Positions 39,607 through 44,956 of a stretch of DNA of 64,000 nt are shown here, piece after piece; within the stretch, counting starts at the first letter, position 1; each line of letters begins with the position of its first letter. The DNA is taken from positions 806,001-870,000 of the forward strand of contig NZ_BCNY01000015.1 of the NCBI RefSeq assembly GCF_001602375.1, in the 5' to 3' direction. This DNA is from Methanoculleus horonobensis. Its GTDB lineage: Archaea > Halobacteriota > Methanomicrobia > Methanomicrobiales > Methanoculleaceae. The notes under the pieces are model-generated. The model saw only the letters and a program-made list of their open reading frames with translations, was not told the origin of the DNA and did not search any database. Position numbers and translations under genes: made by a program.

Positions 39607-40815
39607 TCAGGAGGGGATGCGCTCGTTGTTCGGAGGAGGGATCTCCTCCGTCTCCCAAACCGGGATCACCGCAAGCGCCCGTCCGCTCTCGGCGCTGTAA
39701 TCCCCGATACGGCGATGGACGTGCTCGACCATGCCCCCGGTGGTGATGATGAGCGAGTTCTCCCCGATGAGCGCTTTTAGAATACATTTGTCGATGACGC
39801 CGTAGGTGTAGTCGAGGAGGATCCGTTCCCGGTTGGCGAACTCCTTCGCGCGGGTGCCCATCGCCCCGACGTGGTCGACCGTCCCGCGCTCCACGAGCGC
39901 CCGCACCTCGTCGCCCCCGGTTCTGTCGGCGTTGCAGAGGTAGATCCTCCCGCCCCCGTCCCCTGCCGGGGCGTGGCCGTGTATCGCCTGCTCGATCCGG
40001 TCGGTGAACTCGAGCACGCTCTTTGGAGGAACGTCCCGGTCGATGATGCCCCGGAGGCCGAGCTCGTTGTAGAGGTCGAGGAGAGCGGGAGGTTTCAGCC
40101 TGGCTGACGCGAGGAGGCCGTGGTCGGAGAAGACCTCCTCCGGCGGCCCCCGGGCGAGGACGCCCCCCCGCTCCATGAGGACGATCGAGTCGGCCCAGCG
40201 GTAGGCGAGTTCGACGTCGTGGGTGGAGACGAGCACCGTCCGGCCGCCCGAGGCGAGTTCGTCGAGGAGTTCCATCACCTCCTCCGAACTTGCAGGGTCG
40301 AGCGCGGAGGTCGGCTCGTCGAAGACAAGAACCGCAGGTTCCATTGCGAGGATGCCTGCGATGGCGACCCGTTTCTTCTCGCCGCCGGAGAGGTGGTGGG
40401 GCGGCCGCTTCTCGTAGCCCCGGAGCCCGACGTAGCCGAGCGCGTCTCGCACCGCTCGCCGGACGGCGTCGGGAGGGAGGCCGAGATTCACCGGCCCGAA
40501 GGCCACGTCCGCTTCAACGGTCGGGGCGATTATCTGGACATCGGGGTTCTGGAAGACGAACCCGACCCGCCGCCGGAGTTCGCGGAGGCTCCGGTTGTCG
40601 TAGGCGAGCGGCCTGCCGTCGAAGCGGATCACGCCTGAGGCCGGCCGGAGCATGCCGTTGAGCATCAGAAGAAGCGTCGACTTCCCGGCGCCGTTCGGCC
40701 CGACGAGAGCGGTCTTTGAGCCGGCCTCGATCCGGATGCTCACCCCGGCGAGGGCGGCGGGGCCGTTCGGATAGGTGTAGGCGATGTTCTCGGCTTCAAG
40801 CAGCGGTTCCGTCAT
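39607..40815 (-). CDS. cbiO: ECF cobalt/nickel transporter ATPase CbiO with C-terminal extension
   Basis: Energy-providing ATPase of the CbiMNQO metal importer. The first 265 residues form a normal CbiO: TALVGPNGAGKSTLLL (Walker A), VFQNPDVQIIAPTV (Q-loop, ECF type), HLSGGEKKRVAIAGIL (signature), LVFDEPTSALDP (Walker B). It then carries about 137 more residues (about 266-402) with GRIYLCNADRTGGDEVRALV, DHVGAMGTRAKEFANRERIL and LIITTGGMVEHVHRRIGDY, which I do not recognise. ATG at 40815 overlaps the cbiQ stop (4 bases). Usual CbiO is about 270-280 residues, so the tail is a fused domain of unknown role. Confidence 0.93.
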   Translation of the reverse strand: MTEPLLEAENIAYTYPNGPAALAGVSIRIEAGSKTALVGPNGAGKSTLLLMLNGMLRPASGVIRFDGRPLAYDNRSLRELRRRVGFVFQNPDVQIIAPTVEADVAFGPVNLGLPPDAVRRAVRDALGYVGLRGYEKRPPHHLSGGEKKRVAIAGILAMEPAVLVFDEPTSALDPASSEEVMELLDELASGGRTVLVSTHDVELAYRWADSIVLMERGGVLARGPPEEVFSDHGLLASARLKPPALLDLYNELGLRGIIDRDVPPKSVLEFTDRIEQAIHGHAPAGDGGGRIYLCNADRTGGDEVRALVERGTVDHVGAMGTRAKEFANRERILLDYTYGVIDKCILKALIGENSLIITTGGMVEHVHRRIGDYSAESGRALAVIPVWETEEIPPPNNERIPS

Positions 40816-41588
40816 ACGAGCACCACCCCCCCGGTGAAGAGCGAGACACCGAGGACTGCCGAGAGGTAGAGGAGGCCGCCTGCGAGCGCGAGAACCGAGA
40901 TCGGCCGGGTGTCGCCGGGAATCCCGAGCCTGCCGTCGTAGCAGCGTGCGTCCATCGCAAGAACCAGCGCTTCGCCGCTCTCCCAGGTTCTTATGAAGAG
41001 CGCCCCGGCGAGCATCCCGAAAGACCGCACCGACTCCCGGAACTTTCCGTAGCCGAGCCGCATCACCTGCGAGCGGTAGACCTGGCCCGCCTCCTCGATC
41101 AGGATGAAGATGAACCGGTAGGTGAGCATGGAAAGGTCGATGAGGACGGCGGGAACCCGGAGTCTCCGGAGGAGATCGAAGATCTCGGTCATGGGCGTCG
41201 TGAGCGCGATGAAGTAGAGCGAGCACATGCCCCCGAAGACCCGCGCGAGGAGGAGAAGGGCGAGGTTCGCACCGTCTGCCGTGATTGCGAGAGGGAGACC
41301 GGGAACCTGCAGGAGCACCGCCCCTCCGCCGGTGATGAAGAGGATCACGACGATGCTCATCGCTGCAAACGAGACCGGAACCAGGAGGAGTTTCGCGTAG
41401 AACCGTGCCGGTATCTTCGCGAGGGCGAGGACGGCGGCGCTCATCGAGGCCGCGACGAGCAGGGGGGCGACGGGGCCCGGCGACGAGACGCATAAAAGGA
41501 TGCTTGCAAGCCCGATGAAGAGTTTGAGCTCCACACTCGTCTCCCGGAGGTTATTGGTCTGGGCATAGTCTTCAAGCACCTCGTACAT
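40812..41588 (-). CDS. cbiQ: ECF transporter transmembrane subunit CbiQ
   Basis: Scaffold membrane subunit of the cobalt/nickel importer, 258 residues. Five to six hydrophobic segments and the ECF-T coupling motifs with Ala-Arg-Gly-like sequence are represented by YRSQVMRLGYG and VLAMDARCYDG (about 170-220), which contact the CbiO ATPase. It follows cbiN by 39 bases and overlaps cbiO. Family: CbiQ/NikQ. Confidence 0.93.
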   Translation of the reverse strand: MYEVLEDYAQTNNLRETSVELKLFIGLASILLCVSSPGPVAPLLVAASMSAAVLALAKIPARFYAKLLLVPVSFAAMSIVVILFITGGGAVLLQVPGLPLAITADGANLALLLLARVFGGMCSLYFIALTTPMTEIFDLLRRLRVPAVLIDLSMLTYRFIFILIEEAGQVYRSQVMRLGYGKFRESVRSFGMLAGALFIRTWESGEALVLAMDARCYDGRLGIPGDTRPISVLALAGGLLYLSAVLGVSLFTGGVVLV

Positions 41589-41627
41589 TGCGTCTCCCCC
41601 TATCTCTTTGCGGGACTGCCGGAATAA

Positions 41628-41927
41628 TCAGGCGGCCTTCCTGTTGCCCTGCCAGTAGCCGAAGACGTAACCGATGATCACGGCGCCGATGGCAGCCTGC
41701 AGGGCGAAGAGGAGCGACTCGATCTCGCCGCTCGGGGGCTCCCAGAACGGCTCGATCCACGGCTCGTAGCCGGAGGCTTCGATGAGCCCGGCGGCCTCGC
41801 CGTCGGCCCCGCCCCAGGCTTCCTCCCCGTCGCCGAGGGTTGCCTGTATCGCGGCGTCCTGAAAGAGAAAGACGGCGGCGAAGATGACGATGAGCGCGGC
41901 GACCGCAAGCTCCATGCCGTGCTTCAT
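41628..41927 (-). CDS. cbiN: ECF cobalt/nickel transporter small subunit CbiN
   Basis: A 99-residue membrane protein with helices at about 6-24 and 70-92 linked by an acidic extracellular loop. The hallmark [19 protein letters not shown] (about 64-82) is characteristic of CbiN. It helps CbiM load metal. Its start overlaps cbiM by four bases (ATGA). Confidence 0.93.
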
Positions 41928-42616
41928 GCCGCGGCCTCCCGGAGTTTCTGGACGGTGCTCTCGGAGAGGAGGTTCAAGCGCGTGAGGATCTCGGGCTTGA
42001 GCTGGACGATGTACTTGAAGACGAGCATGATGACCGCGCCCTCGATGATGGCAAGCGGCACCTGGGTGACGGCGAAGACCGCGGCGAATGCCGAGAACGC
42101 CCCGAAGAACCCGGCGGTTCCCGGGAAGGCGAGCGCGAGCTGAACCGAGGTGACGACGTAGGTGACGAGATCCGCGAGGGCTGCGGCGATAAAGACCGTC
42201 GCGTAGGTGTTTGCGCCCGCCCGGGTACCGGCCTTATAGACGAGGTAGGCGACGGCCGGCCCCGCGATCCCCATCGAGAAGACGTTCGCGCCGAGGGTGG
42301 TGATCCCGCCGTGTGCGAGGAAGACCGCCTGGAAGACCAGGACGATCAGCCCGAGGACGGCGGCGATGCAGGGGCCGAAGAGGATACCCCCGAGCCCTGT
42401 CCCCGTGGGATGGGAGCAGCTCCCGTTGAACGAGGGGATCTTGAGCGAGGAGAGGACGAAGACGAAGGCGCCTGCGACCGCGAGGAGCGGCAGGGTTTCC
42501 CGCCTCTCCCGTACAAGTCTGTTCAGCTGGTACAGTCCGATGGCCACGAAGGGCAGGGAGATGAGAATCCAGATCTCCCACCAGGGGCTTGGTAAGAATC
42601 CTTCCATGATGTGCAT
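41924..42616 (-). CDS. cbiM: ECF cobalt/nickel transporter specificity subunit CbiM
   Basis: Metal-binding membrane subunit, 230 residues. The N-terminal MHIMEGFLP supplies the amino group, His2 and further His for Co/Ni coordination, as in known CbiM/NikM; the family segment [22 protein letters not shown] (about 56-77) is also present. About seven hydrophobic segments. First gene of cbiMNQO; the 128-base region up to cbiA is a shared divergent promoter. Cobalt is favoured by the nearby cobalamin context, nickel is not excluded. Confidence 0.95.
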
Positions 42617-42744
42617 GATATCACCGCTGCCGCCGTAGAGGCGAGCAGAACAAATACAGTTTATCTAAGGCAAACTAATTTGATGTAACCTGGTTATCTC
42701 CGGTCATATTTATCTTCTGCGGTATTCAACACTAGAGGAACGTT
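42617..42744. promoter_or_regulatory. Divergent cbiM/cbiA promoter region
   Basis: A+T-rich segment between the importer and the amidase. CATATTTATC (around 42705) is a likely TATA box for cbiA; on the minus strand TTAGATAAACTG is a weaker candidate for cbiM. A small palindrome CAAACTAATTTG at 42671-42682 could be an operator. No clear NikR site or cobalamin riboswitch is visible. Confidence 0.45.
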
Positions 42745-44076
42745 ATGCGCCATATTCCAGTGATTGTCGTCGCGGGAACCCACAGCGGCTGCGGCAAGAC
42801 CACGCTTGCAAGCGGCCTGATGGCGGCGCTCGCCGCCCGGGGACTTGCCGTCCAGCCCTTCAAGGTGGGCCCGGACTTCATCGATCCCACCCACCATTCG
42901 GCTATCTGCGGCCGGACGTCCCGCAACCTCGACCCGTTCATGATGGGGGAGGCAGGGGTGCGGGAGACGTTCGTCCGTGCCTCTGCCGGGGCCGAGATCG
43001 CCGTCGTCGAGGGTGCGATGGGGCTCTTCGACGGGCTCGAAGGAACCGATACCGCGAGCACGGCGCACGTCGCAAAGATCCTCGATGCTCCGGTTCTTCT
43101 CGTGGTTGACGCAGGGGGCGCGTCACGGAGCGTCCACGCCATGGTTCAGGGCTACGCAGGGTTCGATCCGGCCGTCCGGGTCGCCGGAACCATCTTCAAC
43201 CGGATCGGGAGCCCCCGCCACCTTGCCATGATCCGGGAGACGAAGAGCCTCCCCATCTACGGGGGAATCCCGCGACGAAAGGATCTCGTGGTCGAAAGCC
43301 GGCATCTCGGGCTCGAGATGGCGGCCGAGACGGGGATGATGGCGCGGTTCGGCGCAGTTGTCGAGGAGACGTGCGATCTACCCGGGATCATCGACCTCGC
43401 CCGGTCGGCCCCGCCCCTCCCGGCGCCGGCGGGGACCCCCGCCCGGCCGGAGGGCGGGGTGCGGATCGGTGTCGCGAACGACGCGGCATTCTGTTTTTAC
43501 TACGCGGACAACCTCGATACGCTCGTGCGGGCCGGGGCGGATCTGGTCTTCTTCTCGCCGATGACCGACCGGCTCCCGGACGTGGACGCCCTCTATCTCG
43601 GGGGCGGCTACCCGGAGCTCCACGCGGAAGCGCTCTCCTCATCCCGGTGCCGGGAAGACGTCCGCCGGGCGGCCGATGACGGGATGCCCATCTACGCCGA
43701 GTGCGGCGGGCTCGTCTATCTCACCGACCGGCTCACGACCGATGAGGTCGATTACCCGATGGCCGGCGTCCTCCCGGCGGCGGCGGAGATGACTGGCCGT
43801 ATCCAGGCCCTCGGGTACGTCGAGGCCCGGGTTTCCGGGTCTGCACCGCTCCTTGCCCCGGGCTCGGCCTTCCGCGGCCACGAGTACCACTATTCCCGGC
43901 TCGACTGTTCCCGTGATGCCCGGTTCGCCCTGGAACTCCTCCGGGGGCGGGGTATCGACGGCGGCCGCGACGGGCTTACCGTGCAGAACACGATCGGGCA
44001 GTATACCCACGCTTATTTCCCGGACGGTTTCGCCGAGAGATTGGTCGAGGCGGCCGGAGCGTACCGGCGGACGTAA
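42745..44076 (+). CDS. Cobyrinate / Ni-sirohydrochlorin a,c-diamide synthase
   Basis: ATP- and glutamine-dependent amidase of 443 residues, class I glutamine amidotransferase type with an N-terminal P-loop NTPase. GTHSGCGKTTLASGL (about 11-25) is the P-loop, FKVGPDFIDPTHHS (about 39-52) and the GAMGLFDG segment (about 90) are typical of CbiA. The C-terminal amidotransferase half has LYLGGGYPELHA and YAECGGLVYL with the catalytic Cys (about 322), and a GHEYHYS segment. In methanogens the same fold serves cobalamin (CbiA) and F430 (CfbB, Ni-sirohydrochlorin); I cannot decide which, or whether both. Confidence 0.94.
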   Translation: MRHIPVIVVAGTHSGCGKTTLASGLMAALAARGLAVQPFKVGPDFIDPTHHSAICGRTSRNLDPFMMGEAGVRETFVRASAGAEIAVVEGAMGLFDGLEGTDTASTAHVAKILDAPVLLVVDAGGASRSVHAMVQGYAGFDPAVRVAGTIFNRIGSPRHLAMIRETKSLPIYGGIPRRKDLVVESRHLGLEMAAETGMMARFGAVVEETCDLPGIIDLARSAPPLPAPAGTPARPEGGVRIGVANDAAFCFYYADNLDTLVRAGADLVFFSPMTDRLPDVDALYLGGGYPELHAEALSSSRCREDVRRAADDGMPIYAECGGLVYLTDRLTTDEVDYPMAGVLPAAAEMTGRIQALGYVEARVSGSAPLLAPGSAFRGHEYHYSRLDCSRDARFALELLRGRGIDGGRDGLTVQNTIGQYTHAYFPDGFAERLVEAAGAYRRT

Positions 44077-44117: not shown

Positions 44118-44717
44118 TCAGGGGGTGACGATGATCGTCCCGGTGATCCCGGTCGTCTGCGACTGGTAGGTGTAGTTGTCTGCGGCGTTGAAGGTGTAAC
44201 TATAGGAGTCGCCCGGCGCAAGCAATCCGGAGTCGAAGAACCCCGTTGCCCCGGTCGCCGATACGGTCTGGTTTGAGGACGCGTCGTTGGTCCATCCCAC
44301 CGTGGTGCCGACAGGTACGGTGAGCATGTCGGGCACGTACCCGCTTTCGGTGATGGAGACGGTCTCGTCAGCGACGAGGGCCGCCGGCGTTCCCGGCGGG
44401 GTTTCGGTCACTCCCGCGGCAACGGTCGTTGTGGTTGCTGCCGGTGTCTCCGTCCCCATCGGGGTCTCCGTTGTCATCGTGGTTGTGGTTGCCGCCGGCG
44501 TTTCTGTCTCCATCGGTGTCTCGGTCTCCATCGGAGTCTCCGTCTCCATTGGGGTCTCTGTCATTGCCGGCGTCTCCTCTTCTGTCTCCATCGGGGTCTC
44601 GGTGAGTCCCGGTGTCGTACCGGGTGTCACCGTCTCGTTGCCCGCTGGCTGCACACATCCTGCAATCATGATGCTCGCAATGACCATGAGAGCAAGGATA
44701 CCAAACATCCTCTTCAT
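44118..44717 (-). CDS. Cupredoxin-like lipoprotein lacking copper ligands
   Basis: A 199-residue secreted lipoprotein. Signal peptide with lipobox IAGC (about 17-20), then a Thr/Glu/Pro-rich linker with four or more METETP-type repeats (about 40-105), likely O-glycosylated and surface-exposed. The C-terminal 95 residues have the plastocyanin/azurin-like fold pattern (SITESGYVPDMLTVPVGTTV, WTNDASS, SATGATGFFDSGLLAPGDSY, YTF, GTIIVTP). The ligand positions are replaced: the first His by Gln (SNQTVS) and the Cys-His-Met cluster by Ser/Thr/Gly residues (YTYQSQTTGITG). So it probably does not bind copper; structural or other-ligand function is inferred. Confidence 0.8.
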   Translation of the reverse strand: MKRMFGILALMVIASIMIAGCVQPAGNETVTPGTTPGLTETPMETEEETPAMTETPMETETPMETETPMETETPAATTTTMTTETPMGTETPAATTTTVAAGVTETPPGTPAALVADETVSITESGYVPDMLTVPVGTTVGWTNDASSNQTVSATGATGFFDSGLLAPGDSYSYTFNAADNYTYQSQTTGITGTIIVTP

Positions 44718-44956
44718 GTGGTGGACGATGCGTCTTGGCGTAGATAAACTTTACCCCTTGCCTGAAAACCGAAATGCAAGGCGTAAAACGGACGTAGCAG
44801 CGCCACGCCCGGTGATACCGGCATCGGAGTTTTCGGAAAAAGGCTCCGGTCAAAAGGGCCCCTGAAGGCTTCTATACAATCTAACAGGGGTTTTTCGGAA
44901 CGTATTGGGAGCCGCAACGCATCATCCGGATCGTGCCGGGGCCGGCGGCCGTCCGG

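Follow-up and report, generated by a model that had tools for sequence, protein, structure and literature searches.

A cupredoxin fold without copper ligands in a predicted stalked lipoprotein of Methanoculleus

Gene layout and fold of the head domain

What a cupredoxin-like domain devoid of copper ligands might do in a strict anaerobe is the question raised by one open reading frame of Methanoculleus horonobensis, located in the window analysed here (the whole 64,000-nucleotide stretch of DNA). The frame (44118..44717, minus strand) encodes 199 amino acids, its coordinates and strand being exactly those of the preliminary description of this locus. It begins with a signal peptide and the lipobox IAGC (44655..44717, minus strand), which is kept in orthologues and, judged from sequence, points to an archaeal lipoprotein lipidated at Cys21 and probably located at the cell surface. 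A low-complexity Thr/Glu/Pro/Met stalk with METETP repeats follows (44382..44654, minus strand; 91 residues, including 32 Thr, 16 Glu, 14 Pro and 7 Met), and the C-terminal part, residues ~116-199 (44121..44372, minus strand), forms the head domain. There is no His in the whole protein and only one Cys, that of the lipobox, and protein length ranges from 159 to 223 aa across orthologues. Upstream, the promoter-like, BRE/TATA-like element AAAGTTTATCTAC (44740..44752, minus strand) lies 23-35 bases from the ATG, indicating a very short leader. In an alignment of upstream DNA it is conserved in nearly all Methanoculleus orthologues, as is the element AAAGTTTATTTAC 5' of the ATG. Literature searches returned no published description of this lipoprotein. 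We also observe a short lipoprotein (L003:1471-1812; G000:C13, about 44700) consisting of a signal peptide, a lipobox and a long METP repeat run, i.e., a stalk without a head domain.

Profile matches of the head domain stay below their cut-offs: Pfam Copper-bind (PF00127) scores 15.4 bits with the full-length protein (E = 0.025) and 18.5 bits with the domain alone (E = 0.0028), short of the gathering cut-off of 21.2, and the NCBIfam plastocyanin match (E = 2.4e-4) is far under its own. A phmmer search against solved structures retrieves 9cck (8e-8), 5fc9 (4e-6) and plastocyanin 1bxu (1e-3). The AlphaFold2 model of the domain, built on an alignment of 65 sequences, has a mean pLDDT of 90.5 and a pTM of 0.80, and its best PDB matches are cupredoxins (Foldseek, 5fc9, E = 1e-8). 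VIA comparison of the model gives Z 14.0 with 5fc9 (1.6 Å over 82 residues), Z 13.4 with 1bxu (1.4 Å over 81 residues), Z 13.5 with 9cck and Z of about 13 with amicyanins. On the basis of this predicted model we confidently assign the C-terminal domain to the cupredoxins, and the modelled match to plastocyanin bears out the fold proposed in the preliminary description.

In both sequence and fold, the nearest proteins of solved structure are 5fc9, a purple cupredoxin of Nitrosopumilus maritimus, and 9cck, the C-terminal cupredoxin domain of an N. maritimus multicopper oxidase, both of which are described as copper cupredoxins, unlike the Methanoculleus domain. With amicyanin/plastocyanin-type cupredoxins (PF00127, PF13473) the domain has in common the fold, the W-x-N motif and the Y-x-Y approach to the copper loop, but it lacks all four ligands and its copper loop is one residue shorter.

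The former copper site and its sequons

Aligned with 1bxu and 20 relatives carrying an intact His-Cys-His-Met set, the ligand columns are occupied by Gln150 (His1), Ser186 (Cys), a gap (His2) and Ile191 (Met). The former copper loop, Ser186 to Ile191 (44145..44162, minus strand), has thus exchanged Cys for Ser and Met for Ile, and is one residue shorter around the deleted His2. Since the fold search gave scores and no residue-level superposition, this placement comes from the sequence alignments, which are consistent with the fold match. MAFFT, run with the 20 intact sequences, and phmmer against 1bxu give concordant results, which rules out an alignment artefact, and ligands elsewhere in the domain are ruled out since it contains neither His nor Cys. 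Across the 34 aligned ligand-free domains, the His1 column holds Gln in 31 and Glu in 3, the Cys column Ser in 33 and Ala in 1, His2 is absent throughout (34/34), the Met column holds a Met in L041 alone, and 33 domains have no Cys at all. The sharing of this ligand-free state goes beyond chance. Judged from sequence, the redox function of a type 1 copper protein can be excluded. Structure, alignment and genus-wide survey all agree with the earlier suggestion of a cupredoxin fold that has lost its ligands; of the substitutions named at that stage, Gln for His1 and Ser for Cys were right, and the Met position, given as "Thr or Gly", is in fact Ile191, a small error.

We consider it probable that the protein is a non-redox, lipid-anchored, stalked and probably N-glycosylated surface module made from a repurposed cupredoxin, with the ligands lost before the genus split. 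Its ancestor would have been a secreted amicyanin/plastocyanin-like cupredoxin whose four copper ligands had all gone by the time Methanoculleus and its sister genus separated, the rigid beta-sandwich being retained as the head of a flexible lipid-anchored stalk. Such a lipoprotein would carry neither electrons nor copper and would most likely bind or space something in the S-layer or extracellular matrix, while in most species a glycan would sit on the face where a copper protein would pass electrons. The lipobox, the stalk and purifying selection on the gene support the anchored, stalked surface module put forward in the preliminary description; the adhesion role that it raised is plausible as a candidate, and a spacer or partner-binding role is likewise compatible.

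The glycan component of this reading was earlier sought in the stalk, which has one conserved N-sequon, located at its base (N27-E-T; 44631..44639, minus strand; in 29/30 orthologues). Better placed are two sequons of the head domain, one at the lost copper site and one close to it. In the alignments, sequon 1 (N149-Q150-T151; 44265..44273, minus strand) is formed by Asn149 across Gln150, the residue at the His1 position, and the Asn of sequon 2 (N181-Y-T; 44169..44177, minus strand) precedes the Cys position by five residues. Sequon 1 (N-Q/E-T with its middle residue at the His1 column) is found in 27/34 ligand-free domains and in 1/31 other relatives; the corresponding counts for sequon 2 (N-Y-T/S at the same position) are 27/34 and 0/31. 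The Asn of sequon 1 aligns with a residue of the electron-transfer face of 1bxu, the Pro preceding its first copper His, and sequon 2 lies on the strand toward the former copper loop, off the copper site itself. The genome has an AglB/STT3 transferase gene and, together with the N-x-S/T sequons, this suggests at the gene level that the lipoprotein is N-glycosylated.

Neither of the two is indispensable: several separate species (L014, L018, L022, L023, L029, L036/L037) have lost sequon 1, and the L032-L037 group, with five members, has lost sequon 2. The repeated loss of sequon 1, the richness of the domain in Asn and Thr, and the fact that relatives often have a Thr after His1, so that one Asn change makes sequon 1, lend some weight to a different reading, which we nevertheless regard as rather unlikely: a non-redox scaffold without a glycan role, whose domain serves only as a spacer or compact head on its stalk and whose N-x-T motifs simply follow from a surface rich in Thr and Asn. 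Against this reading, sequons exceed the number expected from composition only in the ligand-free set, which has 78 against 41 expected (about 1.9-fold), whereas the other relatives have 24 against 28.5, both expectations coming from composition shuffles that ignore shared ancestry. Sequon 2, moreover, needs an Asn plus a Thr/Ser and reappears in the sister genus with its Asn two residues later (2 domains), and a paralogue separately has a sequon at His2.

This paralogue, encoded in the same genome (L002:814-1779; G000:C15, about 236000), is a secreted cupredoxin-fasciclin fusion (Fasciclin, E = 1e-31). Like the lipoprotein, it is a secreted, related cupredoxin with a sequon at a lost His; unlike the lipoprotein, it retains His1, Cys and Met and has a fasciclin domain attached. 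In every one of the 12 copies read, an Asn belonging to N-A-S or N-Q-S takes the place of His2 and the loop is longer, while the relative in another genus (L042) keeps His2. Returning to the preferred reading of a glycan-bearing surface module, it is conceivable, and we suggest it only tentatively, that a copper site became an N-glycosylation site in two separate cupredoxin lineages of Methanoculleus and its sister genus, across the lost His1 in the lipoprotein and in place of His2 in the fasciclin fusion. If true, a face once used for electron transfer would have come to bear glycans and to serve contacts with the S-layer or between cells.

Distribution, selection and age of the ligand loss

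The gene is present in 32/35 Methanoculleus genomes, and in 32/32 of these loci it adjoins a gene for a CbiA-like amidotransferase (42745..44076, plus strand). As this neighbour is convergent, we dropped a functional link and use it solely as a synteny marker. CbiM/N/Q/O-like cobalt or nickel transporter genes, named from sequence, stand beside it in the window (39607-44076). In the sister genus of the same family, two genomes have the lipoprotein gene ~2 kb from the CbiA-like gene. The gene is dispensable, since three Methanoculleus genomes lack it, two of them ~99% complete; in these two (G010 and G030, ~2 Mb) the CbiA-like gene is followed by an MFS transporter gene, and no remnant of the lipoprotein gene was seen. 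A second copy in one genome (L039 in G015, a 566-aa frame) gave no Pfam match when checked for domain fusions.

In the tree, the 34 aligned ligand-free domains all group together in a single clade (support 98/88; in 99% of bootstraps), which adjoins Methanomicrobiales domains that have lost Cys (to Asp) and kept His1. Beyond the order, His1 and the C..H..M loop persist in nearly all homologues. The single clade, its breadth in the genus and the intact ligands outside the order indicate that the ligand loss is derived, old and stable.

The lipoprotein gene is under purifying selection, with a median pairwise dN/dS of about 0.41 for the domain versus 0.19 for the CbiA-like neighbour; such constrained but fast evolution matches the expectation for a surface protein. 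The fold residues W33, N35, G60, F67 and Y75 (domain numbering) are invariant. Purifying selection and the conserved promoter argue for a repurposed domain rather than decay, and a pseudogene is ruled out by selection and conservation. That we are looking at a decaying, functionless cupredoxin heading for loss is very unlikely: the dN/dS is double the neighbour's value, the absence from the two ~99% complete genomes is clean and one copy is truncated, but the median dN/dS, the invariant fold residues and retention in 32 genomes with promoter and lipobox speak against it. The truncated copy (L035; G027:C104) has a domain frame that ends after about 70 residues, through a frameshift or an assembly error in a fragmented genome. 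Least likely of all is metal binding through a non-classical site, e.g., acidic residues or Gln/Ser, for which there is precedent in the axial Gln ligand of some cupredoxins (stellacyanin) and in 4hcg, a Cupredoxin_1 protein solved with zinc, but against which stand ligand positions devoid of His, Cys and Met (but for the one Met of L041), a protein without His and an alignment in which no replacement metal cluster was seen.

Parallels and partial losses

Ligand-free cupredoxins as such are already known in plants, where early nodulin-like proteins (ENODLs) are phytocyanins without copper ligands (PMC3184959). ENODLs are membrane-anchored and stalked, with a cupredoxin head thought to be copper independent, and by analogy they appear to be the closest functional parallel to the Methanoculleus lipoprotein, in which the absence of ligands is seen in the alignment and anchoring and glycosylation are predicted. 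The lipoprotein differs in being archaeal, in its N-terminal lipid anchor and a stalk that precedes the head, and in lacking a disulfide, with no Cys in the domain for an ENODL-type pair. We found no sequence relation between the two beyond the fold, and they are taken to be of independent origin. What is new here, as read from the sequences, is the placement of sequons across the lost His1 and before the lost Cys, as well as the His2-replacing sequon of the paralogue, which offers an easily tested prediction for glycoproteomics.

Among prokaryotes, the lipoprotein clearly exemplifies a redox-metal fold that tens of species have retained despite complete loss of its metal site, and its hosts are strict anaerobes, among which copper use is rare; an earlier survey of copper use counted no more than four cuproproteins in archaea, and plastocyanin was not one of them (PMC2147054). 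Such genes should not be annotated as plastocyanin or blue copper protein.

Separate partial losses occur elsewhere in the order, with ligand sets H-S-H-M (L061, L070), H-S-Y-V (L069), H-D-x-M (L056, L057) and H-S-x-M (L038). Losses of Cys only, of Cys and His2, and of His2 only within the same order make a stepwise loss testable. L061 and L070 (genus g10, family f6) represent a separate loss in which only Cys was exchanged, for Ser, with both His and Met retained. In family f5 (L056:956-1246, L057:1541-1783, L064), Cys is replaced by Asp and the second His is altered, some of these domains standing in tandem with intact copies. The third cupredoxin of one Methanoculleus genome (L038; G029:C2:449248-451502) sits on a long branch, keeps His1 and Met and has Ser for Cys, and is possibly an intermediate in ligand loss.
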